DNA of 64,000 nucleotides from a virus, in IMG/VR virus record IMGVR_UViG_3300031787_000001, positions 124,001 to 188,000 of that record; one strand, written 5' to 3'. Position 1 is the first letter of the stretch. Every line of letters starts with the position of its first letter. Under the pieces are notes generated by a model that was given only the letters and a program-made list of their open reading frames with translations, did not search any database and was not told the DNA's origin. Positions 2,612 to 60,479 of the stretch are shown here, one piece after another. The position numbers were made by a program, and so were the translations under genes.

Positions 2612-3790
2612 TTATATTATTTTTTTGAAATTATCTAATTCAATTTTATTTATCATATCACCCACTTCTTTACCCGGTTTTAAATTCATTTTTTTCATAA
2701 CATCATCTCCACTAACGGTTAAATTAAAATTAACAAAGGCATTTAATAACTTTTTATCAATACCCTCTAAATTACCAAAAGTCATTATTTGATCGTCAGA
2801 TAAATTTGTGTTTTTTTGTATTCTTTTTAATTGAATTACATTATCTAATGACATATTTTTTAAATTAATTAAGAAAGTAATGTCCTTTATCTCATCAACA
2901 CTATATTTTAGATTATTCAATTTTTTTCCGATTGTAGATAGATCATTGTTTTTTAATAATCTTGATATAACTAAAATCGGATCTTTAATTTCTATAAAAT
3001 CTTTTGACACAGATAAACCTCTGAATATTGAATCAAATAAATTATACTTATCAATCAATTGTAAAAAATGTATTGTTGATTTAGATGATATAATTCCCTT
3101 TATAAATTCATCTCTAATCCTTTCTCCCGATATACCATCTATACTTGAATTTCTCTGTAATGATTGATCAACATTATTATCTAAATCTGAACCGAACCTA
3201 CCAGCAAATCTAATTGCTCTAAGTATTCTTAATCTATCTTCATTAAATCTATCGTCAGGGTTACCAACAGTTCTAACAATATCGTTTTTTAAATCCTCAA
3301 CACCGCCAACTAAATCAACAACTTCACCTGTGTCAATATCATAATAAAGAGCATTTATTGTGAAATCCCTTCTTTTCGCATCTGTTTCAATATCTGTAAA
3401 TTCAACTTTATCTGGTCTTCTTTTATCTGACTCTGAATAAGATTCAGATCTAAATGTTGCTATTTCATATTCATCGTTATCTGTAAAAACATTTATAACA
3501 CCGAACGCCTTTCCCGTCGGTAATGTTTTGTAACCTGAATTATTTAATATTGTTTCAACCTCATCGGGTGTTGCATCCGTGGTCAAATCATAATCTTTTG
3601 GTGTTTTACCCAATACCGCATCTCTAACCGCACCACCAACAACAAATAATTTATAGTTATTTTTTTTGAAAATATCTTTAATTTTAATAATGTCTTCAGG
3701 TATTGATATATTGAATTTTATTCTTTCTTCAACCAATAAATCTGAATACATTATTTTATTTAATTGTGATTCAGTTATAACAATTTTCAT
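2612..3790 (-). CDS. cca: Tagged class II CCA-adding enzyme / poly(A) polymerase-type nucleotidyltransferase
   Basis: 392 aa. Tag MKIVITESQLNKIMYSD followed by LLVEE (candidate cleavage). The head domain is clear: GGAVRD at 52-57, the metal-binding pair Asp66/Asp68 in KDYDLTTDA, and RRDFTINA at 140-147, all hallmarks of class II tRNA nucleotidyltransferases. The helical neck/body follows (ERIRDEF). The enzyme adds CCA to tRNA 3' ends or A-tails to RNA; the sequence alone does not separate the two. The HD hydrolase part usual in some enzymes is encoded by the next gene. Packaging in the head is inferred from the tag. Confidence 0.9.
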   Translation of the reverse strand: MKIVITESQLNKIMYSDLLVEERIKFNISIPEDIIKIKDIFKKNNYKLFVVGGAVRDAVLGKTPKDYDLTTDATPDEVETILNNSGYKTLPTGKAFGVINVFTDNDEYEIATFRSESYSESDKRRPDKVEFTDIETDAKRRDFTINALYYDIDTGEVVDLVGGVEDLKNDIVRTVGNPDDRFNEDRLRILRAIRFAGRFGSDLDNNVDQSLQRNSSIDGISGERIRDEFIKGIISSKSTIHFLQLIDKYNLFDSIFRGLSVSKDFIEIKDPILVISRLLKNNDLSTIGKKLNNLKYSVDEIKDITFLINLKNMSLDNVIQLKRIQKNTNLSDDQIMTFGNLEGIDKKLLNAFVNFNLTVSGDDVMKKMNLKPGKEVGDMINKIELDNFKKII

Positions 3791-6122: not shown

Positions 6123-6620
6123 CTACGCTTGTATATCACTGTAACTAGATTTACTCGTTATAGTTATAAATGATTTTAATCCATCAACAATATTTCCCCA
6201 AGTTAACCCCCATTCACTATCTAATTCTTTAAATAAATCTTGTTTTTTTTGTTTACTGAATAATCTATCAACCGCACAAAATTCATTTTTGTTTTTTATT
6301 TGTTTTAGTACATTGACGGTATTTGTTGGTTTTGATAAACCTTGTATTTGATTATACAGATTATTAAATAATTGAATATTTCTATTATTATTTAAGTTAA
6401 GTTGATTGTCACCCATTCTTCTACATTCGGTAAACAAATTAAGAACATCTTTTTTATATTCAATATCACCTGTTGTACCATCATCAGAGCCAGGTACATT
6501 TAATCCGGTATTTGATGGGTCAGCTAAAACATCAGCAAGACCAAGTACAGGTTGTTCTTTTATTGTTAATGATTTAATCACTTTTTTTAATTGTGATTCT
6601 GTTATTATTATTTTTTTCAT
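6123..6620 (-). CDS. Tagged hypothetical protein
   Basis: 165 aa. Tag MKKIIITESQLKKVIKSLTI followed by KEQ. No domain recognised in the body; it is Asn-rich with a possible helical bundle (LFTECRRMGDNQLNLNNN, INKNEFCAVDRLF). It follows the kinase-like gene at 6624 with a 3-nt gap, in the same transcription unit. Confidence 0.8.
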   Translation of the reverse strand: MKKIIITESQLKKVIKSLTIKEQPVLGLADVLADPSNTGLNVPGSDDGTTGDIEYKKDVLNLFTECRRMGDNQLNLNNNRNIQLFNNLYNQIQGLSKPTNTVNVLKQIKNKNEFCAVDRLFSKQKKQDLFKELDSEWGLTWGNIVDGLKSFITITSKSSYSDIQA

Positions 6621-10912: not shown

Positions 10913-11854
10913 TTAGAAATTTATTTTAATAGGTTGACTTGATACAGTGTTTATTAATTGTGATGCCGCCTGTTGATCATTTGCAACACTTGCATTTTGT
11001 GTGTTGTAATATGTATCTCCGTTCTTGAAAACGTGTTTATTTTGTATATGTGCGTTTGCCCAATTAATTAAAAGATCATTATCTAAATTAATCATTTTTT
11101 GTCGATCCACCCCTTTATATTCTAAATAAACTAACGCCTTTACCCTATCGGTTATTTCAGGTGGTGCTTGTTGTGGTTGAGTTTGTTGAGTTTGAGTTTG
11201 TTGTGGTTTAGTTTGTTGTGTTTGTTGGCCACCCGAAGAGTTTTGACCTTTATATTTACCAAAAACCCATGCGGTGATTTTACCTCCTTCCCCATGGTAA
11301 CACCAATGTCCACACTTCCCTTTTTCATTAAAGATATCAGCGTGTCCCGATATTCCCGGCCATTTGGGGTTATTGGTTATGACAAAAATTCCTTTGTTAC
11401 CTTTTAGATATTTTTCAATATTTTCTGGAGTGTTATCTATTGAATCAATTGTAGGTTCCCCAAAAGTTCTTGTTAAATAAATTAAACTATTTTTAGCACC
11501 TGTTGTAATATCTTTACCTTTAGTGGGATACGTAATACCTTTAAACGTCCAATCTTTTTCACTTCTAAATGCACGACCACATTCTACACCCATTTTAATT
11601 AATGCCAAACATAATCTGGTTGCACATGCATTTTGGAATGTTTGTGGTGATTGTTTATATTGGTTTGGGAATATACCAGGAAAAATTTCTTCCTCATCCG
11701 CATTAGGAAAATTATTCCATAAGGCATTAAAATCCATACTTGTTACCACATTTTCAGGATTTACTGAAGCCTCGTTTAATACTTTCCTTGTTACTCCTTC
11801 GTATAGACCTCTTATTCTTGTTTTTTCTTCTTCTGTAATTATAAATTTTCCCAT
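10913..11854 (-). CDS. Tagged Tae4-like peptidoglycan amidase
   Basis: 313 aa from the ATG at 11854, chosen because the tag MGKFIITEEEKTRIRGLYEG begins there; an upstream in-frame ATG would overlap the previous gene. LNE at 26-28 is the candidate cleavage site. Residues 41-200 match type VI amidase effector 4: FNALWNNFP, TFQNACATRLCLAL with nucleophile Cys77, and GISGHADIFN with His171 and Asp173. Tae4 enzymes cut the gamma-D-Glu-mDAP bond of peptidoglycan. A Gln/Thr/Pro linker (208-235) leads to a C-terminal domain of unknown role. Likely acts on the cell wall at entry. Confidence 0.87.
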   Translation of the reverse strand: MGKFIITEEEKTRIRGLYEGVTRKVLNEASVNPENVVTSMDFNALWNNFPNADEEEIFPGIFPNQYKQSPQTFQNACATRLCLALIKMGVECGRAFRSEKDWTFKGITYPTKGKDITTGAKNSLIYLTRTFGEPTIDSIDNTPENIEKYLKGNKGIFVITNNPKWPGISGHADIFNEKGKCGHWCYHGEGGKITAWVFGKYKGQNSSGGQQTQQTKPQQTQTQQTQPQQAPPEITDRVKALVYLEYKGVDRQKMINLDNDLLINWANAHIQNKHVFKNGDTYYNTQNASVANDQQAASQLINTVSSQPIKINF

Positions 11855-11867
11855 ATTGAATTTTTTT

Positions 11868-12260
11868 TTAGGTTGGATAATTGGTTCTAATTTCACTAAA
11901 ATTATACAAAACCAATTTACCGTTTTCACATTTCCATCTACACAATTGATATTTCATTGATGCAGGAAGTAACCTTGCATTATATTTTCCTTCACTGTTA
12001 ACATAAACATCTGTTTTATATAACGTCACATCTTTACCATTATATTTTCCCGACCAACTATCAGGAACATTACGACCTCCTTTTAAAGGTGAGTAATGTC
12101 CTTTTTCAAATTGAAATCCTTTTAAACAAGATATATCATCTTTTTTAGGTACGATAGTAGGTTTTATAGTTGATGTGTCTCTACCCATATTTTGTTCACT
12201 GATCACATTTTTAATCAAGTCGATCAATTCACTTTCTGTTAATCTAACAACTTTCTTCAT
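11868..12260 (-). CDS. Tagged hypothetical protein upstream of the amidase
   Basis: 130 aa. Tag MKKVVRLTESELIDLIKNVI with ISE at about 20-22. The body is a compact, Cys-containing, beta-rich domain (SWSGKYNGKDVTLYKTDVYV, QLCRWKCENGKLVLYN). It precedes the Tae4-like gene by 13 nt in the same unit. It lacks a signal peptide, so it does not look like a Tai4 immunity protein; a co-packaged partner is possible but unproven. Confidence 0.8.
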   Translation of the reverse strand: MKKVVRLTESELIDLIKNVISEQNMGRDTSTIKPTIVPKKDDISCLKGFQFEKGHYSPLKGGRNVPDSWSGKYNGKDVTLYKTDVYVNSEGKYNARLLPASMKYQLCRWKCENGKLVLYNFSEIRTNYPT

Positions 12261-53444: not shown

Positions 53445-53513
53445 GAGAAATAATTTTAAAACAAAAAAAATATTTATTAAAGGTCCGATATCCGCGTTTT
53501 CATCTCACTCGGA
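53445..53513 (-). terminator. Terminator-like hairpin after the tRNA-like RNA
   Basis: GGTCCGA/TCGGACC stem (53482-53488 with 53507-53513) followed on the minus strand by TTTAATAAATATTTTTTTT. Confidence 0.7.
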
Positions 53514-53537
53514 CCAACATGAGCTTCCGACGGGTTG

Positions 53538-53681
53538 TGGTCAGGACAGGATTCGAACCTGTTTTGTAATAAAGGGTCTCACGACAGTTATTTCTAACCT
53601 ACATTTCTGTAGCGTGGTTTGAGTAGTCCCTAAACTGTTCTCTTTTATATTACAATGGCGTACCAATTCCGCCACCTGACT
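53538..53681 (-). tRNA. tRNA-like RNA with a ~95-nt insert in place of a normal anticodon/variable region
   Basis: Read on the minus strand: a 7-nt acceptor arm AGTCAGG pairs with CCTGACC (one A-C end mismatch); T8-G9; a D arm GCG-GAATTGGTA-CGC typical of tRNA-Leu-like molecules; and a T arm ACAGG-TTCGAAT-CCTGT. Between D and T arms lie about 95 nt, where a leucine tRNA has about 32. They fold as a rod: TTGTAATA/TATTACAA, then ACAGTT/AACTGT, then CTACA-GAAA-TGTAG. No clear anticodon loop is visible. The 3' CCA is not encoded. It may be a tRNA with an unusual intron, or a tRNA mimic. It lies 7 nt after the gene at 53689. Confidence 0.65.
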
Positions 53682-57312: not shown

Positions 57313-58212
57313 TTATTTTTTTATATTTTCATAATTTTTAACAAAAAAATCTATTGTTTCGTTCAATCCATCTTCTATATTAGTGAACTTAAAATCTTTT
57401 AATATTTTTTTTAGTTTTGTGTTATCAGATGGTTTTCTAAACTGACCGCTAGGTTTTGTTTTATCCCATCTTATTTCTTTTTTATATCCCATTATCTTTG
57501 TCACCAAATTTGCAACTTCTTTTATTGATATTTCTTCAGAGTTAGATAATATTATCGGTTCTGTTTTATTATATTCGTTTAATAACCTATCACATATATT
57601 GGATACATCTCTAGAAAATATGAACTCTCTTAAAGATTTACCGTCTCCCCATAATTCTAAAATTGTATCGTATTTTATAGATAAATAACATTTATGAATT
57701 ATTGCAGGTAAAACATGACCATTTTCTAAATTATAATTGTCTTTTGGTCCATAAACATTTGTTGGGATTACACAAAAATATTTTGTACCATATTGTTGAT
57801 TATATGACTTTATTTGAATATCTGACATTCTTTTTGAATACGCATATGCGTCATTTGAATGATGTGGTGGACCAAAATGTATTTTTTCCTCAATCAATGG
57901 ATATTCAATATCATCGGGGAAAACACAAGTTGACAAAAAAGCAATTAACTTTTTAACGTTAAATTCTTTTGCGTAATGAATAACATTTGTATTCATTATT
58001 ATATTTTGATAGAAAAAATCGCCTTTATGTCTCATATTAGAAAGAACTCCTCCGACTTTAGCCGCAGTATGAATAACATAATCTGGTGTATGTTTTTCGT
58101 ACATTAATTTCACTTGGTTAGAATCGGTAAGATCGAATTCTTTTCTACTTATTTTTGTTCCTTCTTTGAATTCACTGGCAATCAAACCATTTCCTGTTAT
58201 TAATTTTTTCAT
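57313..58212 (-). CDS. fcl: GDP-L-fucose synthase
   Basis: 299 aa. Short-chain-type Rossmann start (MKKLITGNGLIASEF), catalytic SxxxYxxxK in DAYAYSKRMSDIQ, and fucose-synthase features (FPDDIEYPLIEE, NVYGPKDNYNLENGHVLPA, ELWGDGKSLREFIF). It epimerises and reduces GDP-4-keto-6-deoxymannose to GDP-L-fucose with NADPH. Paired with gmd directly upstream (4-nt overlap). Suggests phage control of host surface sugar or glycosylated virions. Confidence 0.95.
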   Translation of the reverse strand: MKKLITGNGLIASEFKEGTKISRKEFDLTDSNQVKLMYEKHTPDYVIHTAAKVGGVLSNMRHKGDFFYQNIIMNTNVIHYAKEFNVKKLIAFLSTCVFPDDIEYPLIEEKIHFGPPHHSNDAYAYSKRMSDIQIKSYNQQYGTKYFCVIPTNVYGPKDNYNLENGHVLPAIIHKCYLSIKYDTILELWGDGKSLREFIFSRDVSNICDRLLNEYNKTEPIILSNSEEISIKEVANLVTKIMGYKKEIRWDKTKPSGQFRKPSDNTKLKKILKDFKFTNIEDGLNETIDFFVKNYENIKK

Positions 58213-59177
58213 TTATAATAATTTAACCAATAGTCTATCATCTCGTCGAGCATTGTTTCAAAAGTGTATTCATTATCCCATTTAGTTATATCTCTAAGTT
58301 TTGTTGAATCTCCTTTAAGGTCCTCTAATTCTTCTGGTCTAAAATATTTCTGATCTTGTTCCACATATTTCTTCCAATCTAAACCTAATTTTGAAAATAC
58401 ATATTCACATAGATCCCTAACTGAATGTGATATACCTGTTGAGCAAACAAAATCATCTGATTTATCTAATTGTAAAATCATCCACATTGCTTTAACATAA
58501 TCTTTAGCGTGGCCCCAATCTCTTGTTGCCTCTAAATTACCTAATTTTAATTTATTAGATAATCCAAGTTTTATTTTAACCGCTTCTTTACAAACTTTGT
58601 TTGTTACAAAATTGGTTCCCCTTCTTGGTGATTCGTGATTAAATAAAATCCCATTTGATATGAACATGTTATATGAGTTCCTATAATTCCTTGAAATATT
58701 ATAAGAAAAAACTTTTGCACATCCATATGGTGAAACGGGATTCATTGGTGTTGTTTCTCTTTGAAAACCATCGGAATCAATACTATTGCCGAACATCTCC
58801 GAAGAAGAGGCTTGGTATATTTTTGTGTCAGGTTTAATTAACCTAACCGCTTCAAGTAGATTTAACGTTCCTAAACCCGTGACTTGTGATGTATATATTG
58901 GTTGATCAAAAGATATTCTGACATGTGATTGTGCCGCCAAATTATATATTTCATCTGGTTGTATTTTTTGAATCACATAAATCAAAGATGATAAATCGGT
59001 CATGTCCGCATAGAATAACGTAATCTTATCGTAAATGTTATCTAATCTATACGTTTGATTTTCAGCAACAGAATTTCTTTTTAATATCCCATAAACTTTA
59101 TATTTTTTTTGAATTAAAAATTCCGATAAATAAGATCCGTCTTGCCCATTTATTCCGGTTATTAGTGCTTTCTTCAT
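58209..59177 (-). CDS. gmd: GDP-mannose 4,6-dehydratase
   Basis: 322 aa. TGINGQDGSYLSEFLI cofactor loop, the active-site Ser-Tyr-Lys in SSSEMFGNS...SPYGCAKVF, GILFNHESPRRGTNFVTNKV and NLEATRDWGHAKDYV, all typical of GMD. Makes GDP-4-keto-6-deoxy-D-mannose, the substrate of the next gene. Slightly shorter than many bacterial copies but complete. Confidence 0.96.
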   Translation of the reverse strand: MKKALITGINGQDGSYLSEFLIQKKYKVYGILKRNSVAENQTYRLDNIYDKITLFYADMTDLSSLIYVIQKIQPDEIYNLAAQSHVRISFDQPIYTSQVTGLGTLNLLEAVRLIKPDTKIYQASSSEMFGNSIDSDGFQRETTPMNPVSPYGCAKVFSYNISRNYRNSYNMFISNGILFNHESPRRGTNFVTNKVCKEAVKIKLGLSNKLKLGNLEATRDWGHAKDYVKAMWMILQLDKSDDFVCSTGISHSVRDLCEYVFSKLGLDWKKYVEQDQKYFRPEELEDLKGDSTKLRDITKWDNEYTFETMLDEMIDYWLNYYK

Positions 59178-59765: not shown

Positions 59766-60479
59766 TTAATCAACATTTGATATAATTTCCTTTATTTTTT
59801 TAAGACCCTTGTATTCTAAAATCGAATCGGACATTGAATTAATACTTTCTCTTATTATTTCTTTATGTTCCACCCATATCTGATTCAATGGTGTCATTTC
59901 AACTCTAACAAAAAATAAACTAATGTTATTACCCATACCAACTGTGGTTTGAACTTCTGTTCTAAAGTATATATCATCAATACTTTCCGGTATGGGTCTT
60001 TCGTATCTTGGGTGTTGACTTAATGAAGATAAGGATGAAAGTGTCCAAACATATCTCCTATATTTTGATCCCTCCCTTGACATTGCTGTCGTTATATTAT
60101 CACTAGACTTTCTTAATCTTTCAGATTCGGGTACTGGTTCATGAATTTGATAAAAGGATTTACCGACAATTTCATCAGGTGAGAACCCACTTGGAAAACA
60201 AAAACATATTGCAGATAATTTACCATCCTTCATAACCGCAACATCTTCCTCTAACCTAAGTCCAATATCTTTTATATTAAATGAGTTAACACCACAATAG
60301 TCACCAAGAATACGAACAACACTTTCGTCTTCTTGTTTACATAGATACTTTTCAAGTCTAAATAATTCTTTTTCTTTTTCTCTAATATAACTTTCACTAA
60401 TAACGGGACTAAAAACTTCACCATCGTACTTAACAATATCGGGACCGATGGTGTATTTTGGTTTTACCGGAAATACCAT
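59766..60479 (-). CDS. DUF3445 haem-dependent oxidative N-demethylase-like protein
   Basis: 237 aa. KYTIGPDIVKYDGEVF, LRLEEDVAVMKDGKLSAICF, CFPSGFSPDEIVGKSFYQIH, EPVP and IYFRTEVQTTVGM follow the DUF3445/HDOD order; in that family a haem-binding protein removes methyl groups from amines. The protein is shorter than typical bacterial members (often 270-300 aa). Carried by a phage it is unusual; substrate unknown, and a host origin is likely. Confidence 0.78.
   Translation of the reverse strand: MVFPVKPKYTIGPDIVKYDGEVFSPVISESYIREKEKELFRLEKYLCKQEDESVVRILGDYCGVNSFNIKDIGLRLEEDVAVMKDGKLSAICFCFPSGFSPDEIVGKSFYQIHEPVPESERLRKSSDNITTAMSREGSKYRRYVWTLSSLSSLSQHPRYERPIPESIDDIYFRTEVQTTVGMGNNISLFFVRVEMTPLNQIWVEHKEIIRESINSMSDSILEYKGLKKIKEIISNVD

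Follow-up and report, generated by a model that had tools for sequence, protein, structure and literature searches.

The 64,000-nucleotide (nt) stretch of viral DNA analyzed here (positions 124,001 to 188,000 of IMG/VR record IMGVR_UViG_3300031787_000001; hereafter the window) encodes on its minus strand a 144-nt RNA gene that resembles a transfer RNA (tRNA) in its acceptor, D and T arms and carries an insert where the anticodon and variable arms would be. Relatives of this gene, with hypervariable inserts, occur in hundreds of metagenomic phages. We consider it very probable that the family is built as a scaffold plus an exchangeable structured module. On balance, we favor the explanation that its members are two-part small non-coding RNAs, in which a tRNA-Leu-like body carries a structured insert that would be the functional part. 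Judging from the open-license PMC papers that we searched (subscription journals and preprints lay outside this search), the family is apparently undescribed. It would represent an apparently unrecognized class of phage non-coding RNA, whose members are discarded or mislabeled as tRNAs by tRNA finders.

The tRNA-like body and the insert of the window element

The gene occupies positions 53538-53681 of the window (minus strand, as are all parts of it given below), with nt 1 at 53681 and nt 144, an A73-like residue, at 53538. A preliminary description, made from the letters of the window, had placed it correctly to the base and left the strand unstated. Read from 5' to 3', the element consists of AGTCAGG-TG-GCGGAATTGGTACGCC (acceptor strand and D arm), a 94-nt insert, the T arm, CCTGACC and a final A; CCA is absent from the encoded sequence. 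The fold and the family consensus pair the 5' acceptor strand (AGTCAGG, nt 1-7, 53675-53681) with the 3' strand (CCTGACC, nt 137-143, 53539-53545). This stem has six pairs and an A.C mismatch at its end, and a sister variant of the element (L204/L206) has the full seven, with A-U at that position. The D arm (GGCG-GAATTGGTA-CGCC, 53657-53673) is of the tRNA-Leu type by sequence, fold and Rfam alignment. The T arm (ACAGG-TTCGAAT-CCTGT, 53546-53562) was likewise identified by its fold and in the Rfam alignment.

The Rfam tRNA model matched the element over its full length with 26.5 bits (E 0.0018); for want of an anticodon arm, the score stays just below the cut-off of 29. In this alignment the element displays the components of a canonical tRNA body, namely an acceptor stem (6/7 pairs), a D arm, a T arm with a TTCRA loop, and the elbow contacts. 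The end-to-end match and the fold together bear out the three arms named in the preliminary description. Standard ARAGORN and Rfam at its gathering threshold made no call for the element. When introns were allowed, ARAGORN reported a tRNA with a 71-nt 'intron' and a predicted anticodon AAA. Since the element has hundreds of relatives, a chance origin is excluded.

The exchangeable insert, or rod (nt 26-119, 53563-53656), is defined as the segment between the D and T stems; its 94 nt agree with the 'about 95 nt' estimated previously. Its predicted structure departs from the three nested stems of that description, as it consists of an 8-base-pair closing helix enclosing side-by-side GNRA hairpins. 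In this helix, the 5' strand UUGUAAUA (53648-53655) pairs with the 3' strand UAUUACAA (53564-53571) and is unchanged in L204; a T-arm-adjacent helix of this kind recurs across the family (z about 6). The hairpins CUACA-GAAA-UGUAG (53599-53612), GUUA-GAAA-UAAC (53587-53598) and GUC-GUGA-GAC (53576-53585) appear in the predicted folds of both variants. Hence L204/L206, the sole sister variant of the window insert, preserves the closing helix as well as the GNRA hairpins. A nested stem ACAGTT/AACTGT was also considered for the rod and rejected, as both differences of the sister variant disrupt it. The fold of the whole element had a z-score of -2.4, and 3 of 200 shuffled sequences folded equally well.

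Conservation, structure and exchange across the family

The first 20 nt of the window element, covering acceptor and D arm, were found in at least 120 IMG/VR contigs. In the species genomes of bacteria and archaea (84,980 in all), a 25-mer of the 5' body occurred in three contigs, all from metagenome-assembled genomes. From 263 loci we collected 239 distinct elements, carried by phages with Bacteroidota features, so that the 'new tRNA mimic' put forward in the preliminary description proved to be a member of a family far larger than had been suspected. The inserts of these 239 elements fall into 164 unrelated clusters (by shared 8-mers) and range from 22 to 162 nt, with a median of 61 nt; total element length is mostly 70-210 nt. 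Between 1 and 11 copies are found per contig, most contigs having 1-3, another 9, and L077 11 pattern matches, where matches in arrays such as this one include some ordinary tRNAs. The elements are either solitary or interspersed with ordinary tRNAs. A reversed-pattern control gave zero matches. Searches of named phages in GenBank returned no real match for the window element or for a unit from the terminase site described below. A consensus query with N's also returned no match, and element-by-element searches showed this query to be too insensitive.

We then compared the conservation of the body with that of ordinary tRNAs. The acceptor AGTCAGG/CCTGACT is present in 108 of 151 elements and the T stem ACAGG/CCTGT in 110 of 151; the 5' half of the body was the search key and its conservation is therefore partly ascertained, whereas the T stem lies outside the key. 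By comparison, 68 T-stem types were counted in 221 ordinary tRNAs from these loci, and 204 acceptor types in 240. Compensatory variants were seen in the T stem (GCAGG/CCTGC, GTAGG/CCTAC and GATGG/CCATC) and in the acceptor (AACAGAG/CTCTGTT, AGTAGAG/CTCTATT and AGTGCAG/CTGCACT). Directly 5' of the T stem, 96% of elements have a U, as would be expected from the 15-48 elbow pair. We also noted elements of another type, W (L257, 2930-3020, and L125), which keep the acceptor AGTCAGG/CCTGACT, have no recognizable T arm, and hold in common the sequence GTCCTTCAAACGGxAAGTGCGCATA.

Structure within the inserts was analyzed statistically for 97 non-redundant sequences. A helix whose 3' strand ends at most 4 nt (mostly 2 nt) from the T arm was strongly enriched, both over shuffles (z 5.6) and over inserts with swapped tails (z 6.3); for a helix following the D arm, the corresponding values were 2.8 and 3.9. 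Clear H-type pseudoknots were found in 14 of the 97 inserts, and a generic pseudoknot statistic was significant and modest (mean z 0.65). Covariation could be examined in sub-family A, for which 18 sequences were aligned. Here both partners differ in 13 of 23 pairs, pairing is maintained in 98.1% of cells, and none of 500 shuffles was as good. Sub-family A also has a hairpin with a 9-nt loop laid out as 2+6+1 nt, and 9 of the 12 distinct loops have a self-complementary hexamer at their center (CTGCAG, TGTACA, CTCGAG, TAGCTA, AGTACT and others; shuffle mean 1.6, 0/5000). Such a palindromic loop has the hallmark of a kissing loop that forms homodimers, in a geometry that we take to be that of the dimerization initiation site (DIS) loop of human immunodeficiency virus 1 (HIV-1). 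Where a sub-family allowed such a test, the comparison shows its inserts to be under structural selection.

Exchange of inserts was evident at fixed genomic sites. In syntenic pairs, the flanks are 77-90% identical and the inserts unrelated. At the terminase locus, between the two terminase genes, 19 of 80 loci with a relative of the small-terminase gene hold an element; these elements all start at one distance downstream of that gene, have six insert types, and all lie behind one promoter-like GTATCTTTG. The site is empty in most close relatives, where the two terminase genes overlap, and in the cultured relative FpV9 the terminase genes have no intervening space. Often the element at this site is followed by a second, shorter tRNA-like body (GGCTATG.../...CATGGCC), which has alternative middles of its own, freely combined with those of the first. 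The terminase of this group is nearest to those of Flavobacterium phages (51% identity).

The inserts are also portable between bodies. Inserts A and B both occur on bodies with other acceptors and on bodies with extra D-loop hairpins, and insert A matches the GenBank phage MW202828 (MW202828.1; L340, 523-700), where it is borne by the acceptor AGTGCAG/CTGCACT. In MW202828.1, this element is followed by a second tRNA-like sequence that lacks an anticodon arm and then by a terminator-like hairpin. In addition, insert B stands on its own, with no tRNA body and in most cases without annotation, in Cellulophaga phages such as phi10:1 and phi19:1. In Klebsiella RaK2 and KP13-26, Erwinia Hena1, Proteus PM135, the T4-like mogra and others, this free form is a conserved pseudoknot RNA of ~100 nt that often has tRNA genes around it, with 65 records in all (in cultured phages, for example, L366 1425-1565, L365 1460-1580, L338 590-735 and L370 1187-1290). 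By inspection, its helices covary (GTGTAC/GTACAC, GTCTAC/GTAGAC, GTAGGT/ACCTAC). Insert B had no match in Rfam; its sequence GAAAGACCC may resemble 23S ribosomal RNA. Beside it in phage KP13-26 (L366, about 1440-1465) lies TTAAGTGCAGCTAGAAAT, which may be similar to the ToxI antitoxin repeat; it had no Rfam match and was not used in the argument.

In 12 elements, the Bacteroidetes -7 box TAnnTTTG ends at most 12 nt upstream of nt 1. Over the remainder of the 80-nt region, the same motif occurred 7 times; scrambled motifs occurred 0-1 times near nt 1. Given the closeness of the box to nt 1, the RNAs of these 12 elements probably begin at this nucleotide or close by.

Proposed function and rival explanations

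We propose that the conserved body (acceptor, D arm, T arm, elbow contacts, A73 and the U 5' of the T stem) would let tRNA enzymes of the host or the phage cut, CCA-tail and stabilize the RNA. By analogy with tRNA processing in general, it would recruit RNase P, 3' processing and CCA addition. We expect the RNA to be made in infected cells, in many cases as part of a set of several from one phage. The window phage encodes a tRNA nucleotidyltransferase of the CCA-adding type (2612-3790, minus strand; PF01743 2e-40, PF12627 5e-6), a possible partner for 3' maturation of the window RNA; homologues in three other element-bearing phages bring the total to 4 of 19 phages. Each insert, in turn, might bind a host factor, such as a nuclease or a toxin of a defense system, or a target of regulation. 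Because the inserts are exchanged, occur as multi-copy repertoires and are dispensable, we regard them tentatively as host-directed effectors in counter-defense or regulation, a role that we would put somewhat short of an even chance. A decoy or an antitoxin-like binder of a defense protein would be the most plausible form of such an effector, and an antisense regulator a less likely one. The preliminary description had named a decoy for tRNA-targeting defenses; such a decoy could possibly act via the acceptor, the elbow or the insert, and is less likely to be a bait for anticodon nucleases, since the anticodon loop is absent. Pseudo-ToxI of phage PhiTE (PMC3475682) illustrates that an antitoxin-like role is within the reach of a pseudoknot RNA encoded by a phage.

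Several points weigh against the favored explanation. The conservation of the 5' body carries the ascertainment noted above. The window insert is known in two variants only (identical copies and L204/L206), too few for covariation to bear on its predicted internal structure. Among 19 phages, no linked protein family was found (RtcB in 0, Ro60 in 3, the CCA enzyme in 4). Lastly, phage T4 rnaC, the closest known parallel considered below, shares its predicted architecture, and not its sequence, with the window family.

The body itself might be the effector, as a leucine-accepting or elbow-binding tRNA decoy in which the insert merely abolishes codon reading. The body is, after all, the conserved part, with its tRNA-Leu-type D arm, A73 and elbow contacts; elements often lie within phage tRNA arrays, and the window phage has the CCA-adding enzyme. 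However, the inserts appear to be under selection of their own, as seen in the covariation and palindromic loops of sub-family A, in the T-arm-adjacent helices, and in the occurrence of insert B outside any tRNA body. Type W moreover keeps the acceptor without a recognizable T arm, and if the insert were mere filler, a phage would have no need of several different copies. We therefore consider a body-borne effector unlikely. It is far less probable that the element is a tRNA gene with an undescribed intron that is spliced out, as the preliminary description had also suggested. ARAGORN can fold the window element in this way, and tRNA introns do occur near the anticodon arm. In the position profile of 96 non-redundant inserts, however, there is no signature of U33 or of the anticodon loop, which in a canonical tRNA has 7 nt and caps a 5-base-pair stem; the predicted anticodon AAA is arbitrary, and both it and the 71-nt intron were dropped after this profile. 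Many inserts are also too short for any self-splicing intron, their ends form helices or pseudoknots of their own and do not leave two exon halves, Rfam gave no group I match, and the RtcB ligase is absent from 19 of 19 phages, for which reason a link to splicing or repair was set aside. The intron is accordingly an extremely improbable explanation.

A ribosome-directed molecule similar to transfer-messenger RNA (tmRNA, RF00023) would be charged with leucine, carried by EF-Tu and use its insert on the ribosome. The tRNA-like end, the extended helix at the position of the anticodon arm and the pseudoknots of some members do recall tmRNA. Leucyl-tRNA synthetase does not read the anticodon, and the D arm and A73 of the window element are compatible with charging by this enzyme. 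Yet inserts as small as 22 nt could not hold a tag-coding frame and no tag reading frame is present, the family has a D stem, which tmRNA lacks, and neither ARAGORN nor Rfam made a tmRNA call. Hypervariable inserts would also be ill-suited to a target as conserved as the ribosome, and we judge this explanation very unlikely. No more credible is a DNA-level element, such as a recombination or insertion site or decayed tRNA debris without RNA function. Conserved ends, a variable middle, and presence or absence at one site bear a superficial resemblance to integron attC sites or integration targets. Against this, compensatory changes maintain RNA pairs in the acceptor, the T arm and the insert, the U preceding the T stem is conserved, promoters lie directly upstream of nt 1, and T4 rnaC, a similar RNA, is expressed (PMC9697503). 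The arrays, furthermore, hold ordinary tRNAs and not gene cassettes, and a cassette or attC reading was rejected on this ground. The least probable of the explanations that we considered is a Ro60-associated Y RNA of the YrlA type. Y RNAs are small RNAs that mimic a tRNA body, join a tRNA-like part to a long stem, and are known from phages too. TROVE/Ro60 genes are found in a few element-bearing phages (3 of 19 records, including L172 in record G006 and L173 in record G005). They are, however, absent from the genome of the window phage and from the 16 other records, and the link was set aside on this ground. Rfam gave no Y RNA match, and the topology differs, as the ends of the window RNA form an acceptor stem and its long stem stands at the anticodon position.

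Collectively, the evidence leads us back to the two-part RNA, with the body as a carrier and the insert as the probable working part. One could go further and view the tRNA-like scaffold with its swappable modules, some of them putative kissing-loop dimers, as a fast-evolving, multi-copy arsenal against host defenses or for host take-over, of which T4 species 1 RNA (rnaC) would be the classical example; this we offer only as a speculation, somewhat less likely than its opposite. If the inserts are indeed counter-defense decoys, their diversity would map the RNA- or protein-based defenses of the hosts.

The window belongs to a virus record of 286,785 bases with 23 ordinary tRNAs at about 81.7-89.0 kilobases. 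A second relative of the element is present in the same phage, at 84,285-84,486 of the genome (202 nt; L137, about 6285-6486); it has a long hairpin added in the D loop and a different insert of its own. At the window copy, scans for sigma-70 promoters and terminators did no better than on shuffles, and the TAnnTTTG box is absent directly upstream. An inverted repeat, GGTCCGA...TCGGACC, encloses a loop of 20 nt and precedes a T-rich run (53482-53515, minus strand); it lies ~22 nt past the RNA and is a possible terminator. Elsewhere in the window, the minus strand encodes a Tae4 amidase domain protein (10913-11929, PF14113, E 2e-12), which might act in lysis or on peptidoglycan, and a protein similar to haem-dependent oxidative N-demethylase (59766-60479, PF11927, E 3e-23), which is unusual for a phage. 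Two neighboring open reading frames on the same strand (57313-59177) resemble, by eye, genes for nucleotide-sugar epimerases/dehydratases of the GDP-fucose pathway.

Comparison with known RNAs

Among other RNAs with tRNA-like structure, mascRNA (RF01684, MALAT1-associated) arises from tRNA end-processing and has no decoding function. The second body showed a weak, sub-threshold resemblance to it; unlike the window family, mascRNA is eukaryotic, short and without a hypervariable insert. For the proposed mode of action, pseudo-ToxI of PhiTE provides a precedent, being a phage pseudoknot RNA that mimics an antitoxin, counters a defense system, and evolves by expansion and recombination (PMC3475682). 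It differs from the window family in having tandem repeats and no tRNA body, and no ToxI match was found here. Type III antitoxin RNAs are recognized by tandem pseudoknot repeats before a toxin gene, whereas the inserts described here are single-copy and without a match in Rfam, in a comparison that did not extend to particular antitoxins.

The closest parallel in architecture is T4 rnaC, the species 1 RNA (AF158101, 70908-71046), which is 139 nt long and has a T arm CCGGG-TTCGAAT-CCCGG, short pairing ends, and a rod that replaces the anticodon arm. Like the window family, it is phage-encoded, lies beside a tRNA cluster, and joins a tRNA-like T arm and ends to a variable rod. It differs in that its predicted fold has no D arm and has an extra stem before the T arm, and in being annotated as one copy per phage. 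In a blastn comparison of T4 rnaC with all our loci, a full-length match was found only in the T4-like mogra, and none with the window family. The relatives of rnaC show covariation in the T arm (CCGGG/CCCGG, CCTGG/CCAGG, CCAGG/CCTGG), and their 3' bodies have 81-96% identity. T4 and Moon have a common rod (85%), and the rods of VPA32 and NM4.3 have 62-68% identity to other rnaC rods versus 57-59% for shuffled sequence, which is near random. RNAC and RNAD of T4 are late RNAs of unknown function that were confirmed by Northern blot (PMC9697503), and the function of species 1 RNA is still listed as unknown (PMC9697503, PMC3014915). The family described here offers a testable frame for the function of rnaC and, if the arsenal view is true, would explain why that function stayed unknown for so long. 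Lastly, engineered tRNA scaffolds place a foreign structured RNA in the position of the anticodon stem for processing and stability (PMC3753655). That scaffold is man-made, and the window family would be its natural, diversified counterpart, in which RNA modules have been swapped at a fixed site.
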